A stretch of 64,000 nucleotides of DNA, from positions 1 to 64,000 of the forward strand of contig NZ_VCYI01000005.1 in assembly GCF_030464365.1 (NCBI RefSeq), read 5' to 3'. The position numbers and the translations under genes were made by a program. Positions 1 through 18,613 of this stretch are shown piece after piece. Source of the DNA: Methanoculleus methanifontis. GTDB lineage: Archaea; Halobacteriota; Methanomicrobia; Methanomicrobiales; Methanoculleaceae. Position 1 is the stretch's first letter. Every line of letters begins with the position of its first letter. Under the pieces are notes generated by a model. That model had not been told where the DNA came from, did not search any database, and saw only the letters and a program-made list of their open reading frames with translations.

Positions 1-209
1 CCTTTTTCTCCAAGAGTAACTTCTCCGGCCTGACCTCCGGGTCAGACCCAACCCATTCTTAGTCGAAAAAGGTGCTGAGGCACCTTTTTCTCCAAGAGTA
101 ACTTCTCCGGCCTGACCTCCGGGTCAGACCCAACCCATTCTTAGTCGAAAAAGGTGCTGAGGCACCTTTTTCTCCAAGAGTAACTTCTCCGGCCTGACCT
201 CCGGGTCAG
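1..209. repeat. 82-bp tandem repeat, about 2.5 copies
   Basis: Copies run 1-82, 83-164 and 165-209 (partial) and look identical over their shared length. Each junction forms a perfect hairpin with an 11-bp stem and a TGAG loop (65-90 and 147-172). Each copy also holds a smaller hairpin around a TCCG loop. The array lies directly downstream of secY and has no coding sequence. It continues to the window edge, so the true copy number is unknown. A duplicated terminator or an assembly-collapsed repeat are both possible. Confidence 0.9.
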
Positions 210-12960: not shown

Positions 12961-13320
12961 CCGTGCCGGACGGACCGGCACGGAACCCCTCTGGCGAACC
13001 CGGATGGGGCGGGATATCGAACGCCACGCCATTGTCGGCGTGGCGTATGGGAAACAGTTGATGGAGGCAGCGGGAACGTGAAGTCACAGGGACGTTCGTC
13101 TCCGTGCGCCTCGATCGCTCTCTCTGCTGCCGTCCCGGTGTGCACCGGGTGCATTCCAGTCGTCGCCAATAGATCCTGACACTTCGACGCTCCCGGGAAC
13201 ACTCTTCCCGGAACCGGGCGCGCTGCACTGGCGTTGGCCCAGCGTCTCGATCAGATCCAGCCTGTCATCCCGTTGTGACGAGCACAACTCCATATCGACA
13301 TCGGCCCTCCGTGAGGAGGG
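12961..13320. other. hairpin-rich segment upstream of the ribosomal operon
   Basis: Five perfect inverted repeats lie in 360 nt with no convincing gene: 12961-12983 (9-bp stem), 13022-13045 (9-bp), 13134-13149 (6-bp), 13193-13211 (7-bp) and 13305-13320 (6-bp). If transcription of the operon begins at the TATA element near 13492, these sit in the rpl3p leader. They could be regulatory leader structures, an unrecognised small RNA or intergenic repeats. I looked for SRP RNA and RNase P RNA signatures and saw none. Confidence 0.5.
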
Positions 13321-15110: not shown

Positions 15111-15280
15111 TTTGTAGAGTGCGTTACCCGGTAGAGGGTATGCCGTCTGTCTTCGCCGGGGAGCGGGCGAGATCGTGGTCTTCAGGGATTATCTCGATAT
15201 AGGTGCCTCACATAAAGTGCGACGGGTCAAAAGGCTGGAGCATGAGCACCGCTATGTGCGAGTCACGACGGTTCGGAGCG

Positions 15281-15369
15281 CGATGGTTCGTAACGCGATG
15301 GTTCGTAACGCGATGGTTCGTAAGAACCGGAGCGTGAGCGCCGTCAGGTGCGAAGAACCGGAGCGTGAG
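15281..15369. repeat. short direct repeats downstream of mtd
   Basis: A 15-bp unit, CGATGGTTCGTAACG, occurs three times in tandem (15281-15325, the last one imperfect). A 17-bp repeat, AAGAACCGGAGCGTGAG, occurs at 15322 and 15353, with a small GCGCC/GGTGC hairpin between them. No gene is supported here on either strand. Confidence 0.85.
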
Positions 15370-15460
15370 AAACCCGAAGGGTTTCGAGTGCTGGCAACAA
15401 CACAACTGAAATAAAGAAAGAACCCCGTGCAGTGGGCCGTGGGACTATCGCCATAGGGGG

Positions 15461-15601
15461 GAACGACTGCCGGGACGGCAGGAGTTCGAGCACCGAAGGT
15501 GCGAGGCGCGAACGCAGTGAGCGTGAGCACCGTCAGGTGCGAGGAGGGGCTGACGGGGAGTGCGACGTTCCGCAGGAACGGAGCTCGACCACCGTCAGGT
15601 G
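15461..15601 (+). repeat. mini-hairpin array, module copy A
   Basis: Copy A (15461-15506) begins GAACGACTGC and holds two perfect hairpins: CTGCCG-GGA-CGGCAG, then GCACC-GAA-GGTGC. Three further hairpins follow: GCACC-GTCA-GGTGC near 15528, CGTTCC-GCA-GGAACG at 15566 and CCACC-GTCA-GGTGG near 15589. The stems differ but remain paired. Related copies are at 15685-15730 (inverted) and 17537-17584. The block from 15111 to 15980 has no credible gene. Confidence 0.8.
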
Positions 15602-15684
15602 GGGAGGGGGGGGTCTCCCCCCTCCCCTGTCTCCACCTCATAAGAGATATCTAACCCCCACCCCGCCCGGCCTCCGGCCTCCTC

Positions 15685-15730
15685 CTCCGCACCTTCGGTG
15701 CTCAAACTCCTGCTGTTCCAGCAGTCGTTC
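15685..15730 (-). repeat. mini-hairpin module copy B, inverted
   Basis: Read on the minus strand from 15730, the sequence begins GAACGACTGC and holds CTGCTG-GAA-CAGCAG followed by GCACC-GAA-GGTGC. Compared with copy A, the first stem has changed on both sides so that pairing is kept. Copies A and B form a large inverted repeat about 180 nt apart. Confidence 0.8.
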
Positions 15731-15981
15731 CCCGCCCCTTGGGGCGGGGGCAGTCATGGCGATATCCGGTGGAAAGCCGTGCCCCAGAGTACCCCTGGGT
15801 TGTGACCAGTTGGAGCAGACGAGTGGAGTTCAACAAGACCGAGGGGTAGCCTTACGCCAAAAACTCCATTTTCTGCAGGGTGCGGCAGTTCGTTCCATGG
15901 CCGACCGGAGGATGCGGCGGATAGAATATCCAGAACTTGAGTAATACCAGGTACGAACTCATCGCCCAGTAACTGCCACAT
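15731..15981 (-). other. GC hairpin with possible transposon-end remnant
   Basis: A perfect 8-bp hairpin (15731-15748, CCCGCCCC-TT-GGGGCGGG) resembles the right-end hairpin of IS605/TnpB elements. On the minus strand an open frame runs from 15981 to a stop at 15754, just before it. I recognise no transposase motif in that frame, so the link to an insertion sequence is only a suspicion. Confidence 0.2.
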
Positions 15982-15986
15982 TCCAC

Positions 15987-17408
15987 CTACGGCGAAAAGA
16001 TCATCATCCGCTCTTCGGTCATCTCCTCGATTGCGTACCTCGGCCCCTCGCGCCCGATGCCCGAACCCCTGACCCCACCGTAGGGAGCGTGGTCCATACG
16101 GAACGTTGATGCGTCGTTGACCACCAGGCCGCCGACCCGGAGTTCCTCAAACGCCTGCGCGATCCTCCGGGAATCGTGGGTGAAGATGCCCGCCTGCAGC
16201 CCGTATTCGGTGTCGTTCGCGAACGCTATCGCTTCTTCGAAGGTCTCGTAGGGGGCGACCGTCACCACCGGGGCGAAGACCTCGGTCCGGTTCACCGCCA
16301 TATCCGGTGTCGTGTCGACAAGGATCGTCGGCTTGAAAAGTGGGCCGTCGCGGGTTCCGCCGACGAGCACCTTCGCGCCCGACGCGACAGCCTCCTGCAC
16401 CTTTGCAAGCGCCGCGGCGGCGGCATCTTCCGAGATCATCGGACTCACGTCGGTGCCGGGCTTGCGCGGGTCGCCGGTGGTAAGGGCGCGGGCCCGCTCG
16501 ACGAGCAGCGCGAGCGCCTCCTCGTAGATCGGGCGGTGAAGGTAGACCCGCTGCACCGCGATGCAGGCCTGGCCGGCGTTCGAAAAGGCACCGGCAACGA
16601 TCCGGTCGGCGGCGAAGGGGATGTCGGCATCTTCGTGAACGATCACGGCCGCGTTGCCGCCAAGTTCCAGCCCGACGCGCTTTTGGCCGGCAATCCCCCT
16701 CAGGTGCCACCCGACAGCCGGGCTCCCGGTGAAACTCACGCAGGCGACCCGGTCGTCCCGCACCATCCGCTCCGCAAGATCGGTGTGGCAGGGGACGACG
16801 CTGACCGCTTCGGGCGGGATGCCGGCATCAAGAGCCATCTCACCGAGCATCAGCGAAGAGATCGGGGTGGCCGACGCAGGTTTGAGGACGACGGAGTCCC
16901 CAGCGCCGATGGCCGGTCCCAGTTTGTGGCAGGCAAGGTTGAGCGGGAAGTTGAACGGCGTGATCGCGAGCACCGGGCCGAGCGGGAACCGGCGAAGGCA
17001 GCCGACCCTCCCTTCCCCGGCCGCGTTCCAATCGAGAGGAAGGATTGTGCCGTCGATCCGGCGCGCTTCCTCGGCGGAGACCTCGATCGTCTCCCGTGCA
17101 CGCACGACCTCGCTTTCGGCGAGAGCGCGGGTCTTCCCCGCTTCGAGCATGATCGTCCCGGTAAGTTCGGCGGACCGTTCCCGGATGAGATCGGCGAGGT
17201 TGTAGAGGATCTCAGAGCGGCGGTGAGCCGGAAGGCGGCGGGTGAGGGAGAACCCGCGTTCTGCACAACGGAGGGCGTCCTCAACGTCGTCGCTCCCGGC
17301 AAGGCAGACCCGGCCGACGATCTCTCCAGTGCAGGGGAACCGGACGTCCAGGACATCGGTGCTCGTCCGCCATTCTCCGCCGACCAGGAATCCGCGCGGC
17401 TCTGTCAT
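15987..17408 (-). CDS. NAD(P)-dependent aldehyde dehydrogenase family protein
   Basis: The 473-aa enzyme oxidises an aldehyde to an acid. It shows the cofactor and active-site signatures of the ALDH superfamily: ITPFNFPLNLACHKLGPAIG (about residues 149-168), LELGGNA with the general-base Glu near 250, and FSNAGQACIAVQRVYLH with the catalytic Cys near 285. Many methanogens carry a related lactaldehyde dehydrogenase (CofA) for F420 synthesis. That role is possible here, but the sequence alone does not prove it. A TATA element 26 nt before the ATG implies a leaderless mRNA. It is not obviously co-transcribed with the GalT-like gene 275 nt upstream. Confidence 0.85.
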   Translation of the reverse strand: MTEPRGFLVGGEWRTSTDVLDVRFPCTGEIVGRVCLAGSDDVEDALRCAERGFSLTRRLPAHRRSEILYNLADLIRERSAELTGTIMLEAGKTRALAESEVVRARETIEVSAEEARRIDGTILPLDWNAAGEGRVGCLRRFPLGPVLAITPFNFPLNLACHKLGPAIGAGDSVVLKPASATPISSLMLGEMALDAGIPPEAVSVVPCHTDLAERMVRDDRVACVSFTGSPAVGWHLRGIAGQKRVGLELGGNAAVIVHEDADIPFAADRIVAGAFSNAGQACIAVQRVYLHRPIYEEALALLVERARALTTGDPRKPGTDVSPMISEDAAAAALAKVQEAVASGAKVLVGGTRDGPLFKPTILVDTTPDMAVNRTEVFAPVVTVAPYETFEEAIAFANDTEYGLQAGIFTHDSRRIAQAFEELRVGGLVVNDASTFRMDHAPYGGVRGSGIGREGPRYAIEEMTEERMMIFSP

Positions 17409-17430
17409 GGGAGAGAATTGATGCGGCTCA

Positions 17431-17438
17431 AAATTAAT
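17431..17438 (-). promoter_or_regulatory. TATA box of the aldehyde dehydrogenase gene
   Basis: ATTAATTT on the minus strand is centred about 26 nt upstream of the ATG at 17408, consistent with leaderless transcription. Confidence 0.5.
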
Positions 17439-17536
17439 TTTTGGCTCCGTCAGAGCGCTTCGCGCACCCTCCGGGCGATACCCGGTTGTCGGTAGAAGAG
17501 AGGCCCTTGCCGGGATAGTGACAGGTCTTCACGCGA

Positions 17537-17584
17537 AATGCGACTGCCCGTAGGACAGGAGTTTGAGCACCGTCAGGTGCGAAG
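17537..17584 (+). repeat. mini-hairpin module copy C
   Basis: This intergenic copy shares GCGACTGCC...GGAGTTTGAGCACC with copies A and B. Its first stem is CTGCCC-GTA-GGACAG (5 of 6 pairs) and its second is GCACC-GTCA-GGTGC. It lies about 2 kb from the other two copies, between the aldehyde dehydrogenase and GalT-like genes. Confidence 0.75.
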
Positions 17585-17614
17585 TGCGCGAAACCCAAAG
17601 CGAGAATGACAACT

Positions 17615-17643
17615 CCTTCGCGTTCTTCGCGCCTTCGCGTGAG
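17615..17643 (+). repeat. dispersed TTCGCG-rich repeat, copy 1
   Basis: CCTTCGCGTTCTTCGCG followed by CCTTCGCGTGAG recurs, with two differences, at 34604-34632, about 17 kb away. Both copies are intergenic. Confidence 0.7.
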
Positions 17644-17683
17644 CCGTCGGTGTATGGGTAAACCCGGAGATATTCAACAAACC

Positions 17684-18613
17684 TTACTCTTTCTCCCGGA
17701 AGAGCGCGCCGAGGTCTTCGGGGAGCGTCAGGACGATCGGCTCCAGGTGCAGCCGCTCCATGAACGCCGAGTCGCACATGGAGAGGCTGTTCGGGTTTAA
17801 CCGTGCGATGATTGAGCAGAAAGCACGATGGCCCTGCCCGGCTGTTCCGGGGGCATCAAAGAAGATCGAGGCGTTGAAGGCGTGCGTGCCGAGGCTCCGG
17901 TAAAAGTCGACGACACGGAGGATTCCGTCGGCCAGTGGCTCGATATATGGTTCGAGTTCCTCAAGCGTCGATATCGGGAGGATTCCCCGCACCTCACGCT
18001 CGCCGAGCGGGACGGGGTTTGCCGACCAGAAGATCTCGTTCTCGAAGAGAAAACGCTCCGAGCAGCGTTCGCGCTCTACGAGATCGTCCCAGTAGAGACG
18101 GCCGCGATCGGCGAGATAGCGGCGACCGCCGGAGATGTAGAGCTCCGCAAGGTGGGTGGGCTCCACATCGGCGATGCCCTGCAGGTGCGGGTGGACGATG
18201 CTCGCACCGGCCGACGGGAGGTGGTTCCAGTTGATGCTCGCATATCCAGGAGTTCGAGCAAGGGCCTCTGCCGTTCCGGATATGGCATCGGCGAGACACT
18301 TCGCGTCGAACCGGCCGGGCCCGTGATCAGGGGTGATCACCGTGACCACGTGATGCCCGGCGAACGGGTAGAGGTTCGGGAACGTCACGCTCTTCCCGCA
18401 CCGGAGCCGGCTCCCGTCCTCGAACGTCGGGGTGGAAGTATCTATAGCATCGGGGCAGAAGGGGCAGCCGTCGCGGGATGAAGGCATGGCAGGAGCGGCG
18501 TCGATCTGCCTCTCAACCCGGACAGGACTGATCCGGCACCGGATGCCGGTGAGAGATTCCCGGCGGTACTGGAGAATCCCCCGCTCCGTCAGGATCTCGC
18601 GGGTAGTGAACAT
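17684..18613 (-). CDS. galactose-1-phosphate uridylyltransferase-like protein
   Basis: This 309-aa protein belongs to the GalT branch of the HIT superfamily, which transfers nucleotidyl groups through a His intermediate. The zinc-site motif CPFC is near residue 50. The active-site region NHLPSAGASIVHPHLQG (about 150-166) contains the HPHxQ signature. A C-terminal half of GalT type follows, ending near FMERLHLEPIVLT. The substrate is unproven; sugar-nucleotide supply for surface glycans is possible. A TATA-like TTTTATAC lies about 35 nt before the ATG. Confidence 0.8.
   Translation of the reverse strand: MFTTREILTERGILQYRRESLTGIRCRISPVRVERQIDAAPAMPSSRDGCPFCPDAIDTSTPTFEDGSRLRCGKSVTFPNLYPFAGHHVVTVITPDHGPGRFDAKCLADAISGTAEALARTPGYASINWNHLPSAGASIVHPHLQGIADVEPTHLAELYISGGRRYLADRGRLYWDDLVERERCSERFLFENEIFWSANPVPLGEREVRGILPISTLEELEPYIEPLADGILRVVDFYRSLGTHAFNASIFFDAPGTAGQGHRAFCSIIARLNPNSLSMCDSAFMERLHLEPIVLTLPEDLGALFREKE

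Follow-up and report, generated by a model that had tools for sequence, protein, structure and literature searches.

What is the repeating entity in the intergenic DNA of this locus, and is it kept as a mobile element, a protein-binding array or a structured RNA? The first-pass annotation had marked a two-hairpin module there in three copies and had offered these three interpretations. The window, that is, the whole stretch of 64,000 nt analysed, is part of contig 26 of the Methanoculleus methanifontis genome (2.61 Mb in 30 contigs). All three copies are real, and their coordinates needed adjustment by only a few bases: copy A lies at 15460-15504 (+), copy B at 15686-15731 (-) and copy C at 17539-17584 (+). 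Their first stems are as described, namely CTGCCG/CGGCAG with a GGA loop in A, CTGCTG/CAGCAG with a GAA loop in B and, in C, the mostly paired CTGCCC/GGACAG with a GTA loop and one C.A mismatch. The second stem had been called constant, which is true of GCACC/GGTGC in A, B and C (loops GAA, GAA and GTCA, respectively) but not of a fourth, overlooked unit, D (15561-15606, +), where CGTTCC-GCA-GGAACG as stem 1 is joined to CCACC-GTCA-GGTGG, a stem 2 altered on both sides.

Copies A and B had been taken for separate intergenic copies. Both are in fact the inward-facing ends of one 319-bp composite repeat (type B, 15446-15764, unstranded, with ends TATCGCCA...TGGCGATA), and are therefore not independent. 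Copy A, in which GAAC...GTTC can pair outside the GA/GA bases, is followed by unit A2 (15506-15542, +; stem 1 ACGC-AGTGA-GCGT, stem 2 GCACC-GTCA-GGTGC) and by the 5' half of a published G-rich motif, the recurrent potential G-quadruplex sequence (rPQS), with the central loop CTGAC (15543-15560, +). This motif is interrupted by unit D, beyond which a G-run and a C-rich track complete it (15607-15627, +; assigned by sequence, following the motif as given in the available part of PMC8044849). The GGAG that ends the 5' half (15557-15560) recurs at 15603-15606, the end of unit D. Among the sequences compared, 39 pairs of type B ends are listed at a span of 60-800 bp, with lengths of 78-512 bp. Copy C sits in another composite repeat (type A, 17528-17643, unstranded), built of inverted arms of GCGAAG words, TCACGCGAAA... 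/ CTTCGCGTTCTTCGCGCCTTCGCGTGAG. The type A arm pattern occurs 157 times in this genome and 0 times in the reversed control. Where relatives have the site corresponding to copy C, sequence L153 has two units with other stems, L154 has an inverted interior and several relatives have nothing; in the comparison of the type A repeat with G028, G016, G112 and L164, and likewise at an empty site in C26 (about 96029-96350), the junction is too diverged to define a TSD. In G034 the type A repeat has undergone a separate explosion, with 559 matches of the ACGCGAAG...CGCGAAG arm pattern and 6 core matches of the unit.

Upstream of the type B repeat lie a degenerate unit (15218-15262, +; stem 1 CGGGTC..GGCTGG, stem 2 GCACC GCTA TGTGC), the 15-mer GATGGTTCGTAACGC twice in tandem (15282-15311, +), unit E (15312-15355, +; stem 2 GCGCC GTCA GGTGC) and hairpin F (15354-15388, +), whose stem is of the stem-2 type GAAACCC-GAA-GGGTTTC with GA/GA flanks. 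At the site orthologous to 15282-15388 in the relative G028 (L155), the 15-mer and a 31-mer fragment from the 3' part of unit E are strongly expanded in tandem, which represents fast local tandem growth.

Comparison of the copies in this genome yields a unit of 42-48 nt with the pattern TGCGA-[stem 1]-GAGYNNGA-[stem 2]-GARR. The 5' start is NGCGA, mostly TGCGA, and stem 2 is followed on its 3' side by GA and two purines. Tandem arrays have uniform stems and a period of 45-47 nt, and the repeating entity is therefore one unit of two hairpins. The concern that the genome might hold no further copies did not come true: the core pattern matches 132 times (reversed control, 0), and the stem-2 core with up to 2 mismatches is found at 99 places in the 2.61 Mb (reversed control, 0). 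Within the genus, the core pattern is present in 31 of 35 genomes, this one included, at 0 to 133 copies each. Among 164 genomes from elsewhere in the order, 4 have it, with 14 copies in one same-family genome of another genus and 1 to 5 in the three others. Matches in named genomes belong to Methanoculleus, other Methanomicrobiales or euryarchaeal MAGs (80 of at least 111 matches listed). Arrays of 46-47-nt units also stand at the very ends of contigs (L040, 1-320; start of G046:C11); assemblies therefore probably break there, and copy numbers are lower bounds.

The first-pass annotation had argued, from changes on both sides of the stem, that structure and not just sequence is kept. The set used here for stem 1 was chosen by the frame alone, to avoid selecting by pairing, and comprised 98 unique modules with 70 unique 15-nt stem-1 sequences; stem-1 pairing, loop classes, mismatches, nesting, flanking repeats, CTGACGGGG sites and outer covariation were all counted after deduplication. 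Across the 70 sequences, 89.8% of stem-1 cells hold standard pairs, compared with a mean of 66.1 and a maximum of 70.2 in 500 shuffles. Cells with a double change number 92, far above the shuffles (mean 29.4, maximum 43), in a count that treats related copies as independent, and the claim is thereby upheld. Two-sided change is seen at all 6 stem-1 pairs, a count that is weak by itself because the shuffle mean is already 5.4. Sliding the partner strand of stem 1 by one or two positions brings pairing down to 35.7% and 26.0%. The commonest imperfect stem 1 (of the CTGGCC..GGGCAG kind; 22 of the 70 sequences) has a G.G mismatch. The stems of the new copies, which might have turned out unpaired, are thus predominantly paired, and the 97 unique modules in which both stems form comprise 27 stem-1 types, 12 stem-2 types and 46 combinations. 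The existence of 27 paired types of stem 1 speaks against a protein-binding array, in the sense of sequence-specific binding to the duplex.

The frame around the stems is shared, as had been noted, but is probably not wholly unpaired. Among stems of at least 5 bp in 152 sequences, GA...GA is the commonest pair of bases flanking a palindrome (825 cases against 205 for the next, and against 42 GA...GA cases in the reversed control). The two positions outside GA/GA are Watson-Crick in 133 and 127 of 245 cases, compared with 66 and 66 in shuffled sets (maximum 88 and 86), and AACGA...GAGTT alternates with TGCGA...GAGC at the stem flanks. At the third position further out no covariation was found (67 against 66 shuffled). 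Judged from the sequences, this covariation fits tandem G.A pairs extending each stem. Tandem G.A mismatches of this kind would be sheared.

Comparison of filled and empty sites supports mobility of the unit. In a methyltransferase gene, a net in-frame insertion of 45 nt corresponding to one unit is present in two species, G108 (L110, L204) and G063 (L205), and the unit is absent from 11 orthologues (L206-L216), L217 spanning the downstream part only. The two carriers are 86% identical over a 736-nt query, and stem 1 is CGTTCC/GGAACG in one and CGGACG/CGTCCG in the other, both fully paired. A flanking direct repeat is not clear at this insertion, which is the one clear case inside a gene, comparison with orthologues having been made at L110/L205 only. 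At a dispersed paralogous site (the L039 family), 5 of 15 rows have a unit and 10 are empty; two of the rows (L226 and L094) are identical in sequence, and a four-unit array occupies the site in this genome. At CTGACGGGG sites a unit follows in 34 cases and does not in 54. Some of the filled sites could stem from recombination between repeats rather than from fresh insertion.

Units also enter one another. In 21 unique cases one unit interrupts stem 1 of a second unit, the usual point of entry being behind base 12 of the 15-nt stem, and the last three bases of the host stem resume beyond it; in L127 the nesting is three deep. The three bases on the left of the unit recur one base past stem 2 in 40 of 116 non-tandem units (expected 13.2, maximum 25 in 2,000 shuffles), and at offset 0 in 18 more, the exact ends of the unit being ambiguous. 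The left flank is rich in purines (145 of 149 units at -3, 136 at -2 and 133 at -4), and a purine run with a consensus of about GNRRRG usually borders the unit on that side. The unit itself has no terminal inverted repeat, as it starts with TGCGA and ends with stem 2 and a G, whereas inverted ends are present in both composites, A and B.

Filled and empty sites and self-nesting support one of the interpretations first proposed, a mobile non-autonomous element; the other two, the structured RNA and the protein-binding array, are disfavoured. We put at about 0.7 the probability that these repeats are a dispersed non-autonomous palindromic mobile element of Methanoculleus-type methanogens, with the single two-hairpin unit as the transposing entity. 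In such an element, the entity that moves would be one module of 42-48 nt, TGCGA-S1-GAGYNNGA-S2-G, recognised and transferred as DNA in folded, single-stranded form (the GAGC strand), with G.A pairs in tandem beside each stem and DNA-stable cGNAg/cGNNAg loops. Because recognition would act on the folded strand, selection would keep the fold and not the stem sequence, and stems might drift through G.T intermediates and be swapped between copies. The enzyme would probably be supplied in trans, and would be neither a Y1 transposase (IS200/IS605/RAYT) nor a reverse transcriptase encoded in this genome. Units may also hitch-hike in, or invade, the larger repeats of types A and B. More tentatively, the unit could represent archaeal mobile DNA of a new class. 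What is inherited and recognised would then be a single-stranded DNA fold rather than a sequence, with DNA-specific loops and tandem G.A pairs closing its two hairpins; the stems would be freely replaceable, the enzyme would belong neither to the Y1/HUH kind nor to the reverse transcriptases, and targeting of its own stems at a fixed position would build Russian-doll arrays.

The same copies might instead have grown passively, through polymerase slippage, template switching at hairpins and gene conversion, with neither a transposition enzyme nor selection on the fold. The tandem arrays with uniform stems at 45-47 nt speak for this, as do the expanded 15-mer and 31-mer arrays in G028 and the block-wise difference in stem 1 between the two species with the methyltransferase insertion. 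Against such growth stand units cleanly inserted, with a flanking repeat, into empty sites unrelated to one another, the nesting at a fixed position, and the distribution of the core pattern, which in the searched genomes of the order is almost wholly confined to one genus. We consider it unlikely.

Another reading is a REP/REPIN-type element moved by a host-encoded RAYT transposase of the Y1/HUH kind. The unit shares with REP, REPIN and BIME the short hairpins, the 100 or more copies and the composite arrays (PMC2817692, PMC3116915 and PMC3733652, in the parts available), and its size, extragenic bias and tandem or inverted arrangement also recall REP/BIME; moreover, 7 of the 35 genomes of the genus have Y1 transposases. 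However, no match of Y1_Tnp (PF01797) was found in this genome, while control searches were positive in 5 of 14 genomes. Matches over the cut-off occur in 1 of 23 genomes with at least 20 core matches of the unit and in 5 of 12 with fewer, and one further weak match, below the cut-off, lies in a unit-rich genome. The sequence is also unlike that of REP: the unit starts with TGCGA and not with the GTAG/CGTC tags described in the available parts of the same three papers, and its stems vary freely in place of a palindrome of conserved sequence. We therefore regard a RAYT-driven element as improbable.

Other sources of a mobilising enzyme were considered. Reverse transcriptase RVT_1 (PF00078) has 0 matches in this genome and is present in 3 of the 35 genomes of the genus. 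In other phyla, PDDEXK_3/GxxExxY proteins have a link to arms of the ACGCAAAG type; this genome has none of these proteins. Larger TATCGCCA...TGGCGATA pairs were inspected as possible autonomous copies, and on visual inspection the long frames of the 7 that exceed 1 kb resemble ordinary genes. An encoded transposase with matching ends, which had been proposed as something to look for, was thus not found among these larger type B end pairs. A lagging-strand single-stranded DNA transposon might show a replication-strand bias, and none was seen in the complete genome G092 (71 clusters, P = 0.79). Viral carriage was rejected as well, the single match to viral contigs (L224) lying in a high-GC, repeat-rich stretch and probably being due to chance. 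Separately, an intergenic stretch of L174 holds a CCCACGACTTTAGTCGTGGG-type hairpin, which we take to resemble the ends of IS605/IS1341 elements.

Loop type and strand orientation bear on which nucleic acid folds. The loops of 494 unique GA-flanked stems divide into GNA (208), GNYA (128), GNRA (25) and others (133), compared with 355, 97, 115 and 6,742, respectively, in 7,309 background stems. DNA loops of the GNNA and GNAB kinds are stable, GNRA being the RNA analogue (PMC8373063, citing Nakano 2002, in the part available). Relative to tandem flanking genes, the module strand is the same in 84 cases and opposite in 63, and it is about even between convergent genes. The GNA/GNNA loops, mostly GNYA and not GNRA, and a strand that does not follow transcription lead us to favour a hairpin that acts at the DNA level, an interpretation drawn from sequence comparison. 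Single mismatches on the module strand are G.T in 45 cases and A.C in 19 (over three sets of stem 2 together with the 6-bp set of stem 1), so that one strand seems to be the folding strand, although one stem-2 set alone leans the opposite way (G.T 1 to A.C 3). Copies fold well against shuffles with both DNA and RNA parameters (z of -1.6 to -4.7, copy C being the weakest), and folding energy therefore does not decide.

Placement relative to genes was derived with a home-made ORF scorer, and the counts of orientation exclude edge clusters (5 in this genome and 33 in the named genomes). This genome has 47 clusters, of which 39 are intergenic, 3 were called inside a gene and 5 are at an edge. The 15 calls inside genes (these 3 and 12 in named genomes) include at least two, L058 and L185, that are the same ordinary coding palindrome, and another, L066, that has masked bases. 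Divergent gaps are avoided: they hold 2 of 39 clusters in this genome and 7 of 96 in named genomes, yet make up 29 of the 127 and 97 of the 362 intergenic gaps, respectively, a depletion at divergent promoters that matches the 11% head-to-head placement reported for rPQS in the available part of PMC8044849.

This depletion, the two-sided stem changes and the good RNA folds are what a transcribed structured RNA under selection (a terminator, a 3'-UTR element or a small RNA) would lead one to expect. Against it stand the near-balance of strands relative to neighbouring genes, the excess of GNYA over GNRA loops, and the presence of units within a coding gene and within one another; in Rfam, no family scores above its gathering threshold at the repeats (15200-17700). 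The structured RNA put forward by the first-pass annotation is accordingly improbable. Finally, the idea that the unit is mere internal filler of type A and B inverted-repeat elements of the MITE kind, moved by a DDE transposase, agrees with the location of A, A2, D, B and C within such elements but is made very improbable by the decoupling of type A arms from the unit (arm/core matches 559/6 in G034, 8/95 in G046 and 0/28 in G022), by the lone unit without arms in a gene and by the finding that, of 149 units classified by left flank, type A arms precede 17 and, under the strict rule, an rPQS site precedes 13.

A mobile two-hairpin unit can be set beside several described systems. With MITEs it shares insertion polymorphism and empty sites, and it differs from them in having no terminal inverted repeats of a known transposon. 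Rickettsia palindromic elements (RPE) are, to our knowledge, without a known autonomous partner. Like the unit, RPE are small palindromes that insert intergenically and in frame within protein genes (PMC10969869, in the part available). There they are described as bacterial and about 150 bp long, whereas the unit is archaeal, about 45 nt long, free in the sequence of its stems and nested in itself at a fixed position. The likeness noted is one of description. In Methanomicrobiaceae, the rPQS with a CTGAC loop and its C-rich track (PMC8044849, available part) lie here within the type B repeat, and rPQS and the unit have the same intergenic, strand-indifferent distribution. What is accessible of that paper describes the G-rich host motif and makes no mention of the two-hairpin unit, of its insertion into rPQS or of the TATCGCCA ends. 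The Methanoculleus marisnigri satellites Fam_48_45_4 and Fam_102_51_3 are reported in PMC6749651, whose available part names Methanocella conradii as the sole archaeal non-coding exception; by description, not by sequence, the 45-nt tandem satellite of M. marisnigri may correspond to tandem arrays of the unit. No description of the unit itself was found in the literature searched (main texts). Thus the rPQS host motif, and maybe the 45-nt satellite, are already in print, and the unit works like a palindromic mobile repeat of the REP/RPE sort that lacks the Y1 transposase and the sequence marks of REP.

Small palindromic repeats of archaea are little studied, and the REPs known from bacteria rely on a Y1 transposase. 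The present unit belongs to a genus of methanogens from biogas and sediment and is mobile-like, yet most of the genomes that carry it have no gene for a Y1 transposase or a reverse transcriptase. It thereby becomes directly testable what agent moves or copies short hairpin repeats where a RAYT is lacking, and the family provides a natural data set on how hairpins evolve by compensatory change.

Elsewhere in the window, a long, perfect, GA-flanked hairpin (GAAAAAGGTGC..GCACCTTTTTC) is present in two copies at 65-172 (-) and in one copy in the G028 stretches. At 13176-13254 (-), just upstream of a ribosomal protein gene cluster, the Rfam L4-Archaeoglobi ribosomal leader RF03135 matches with 48.5 bits (gathering score 34.5), in a Methanoculleus-like genome outside the clade for which the leader is named.
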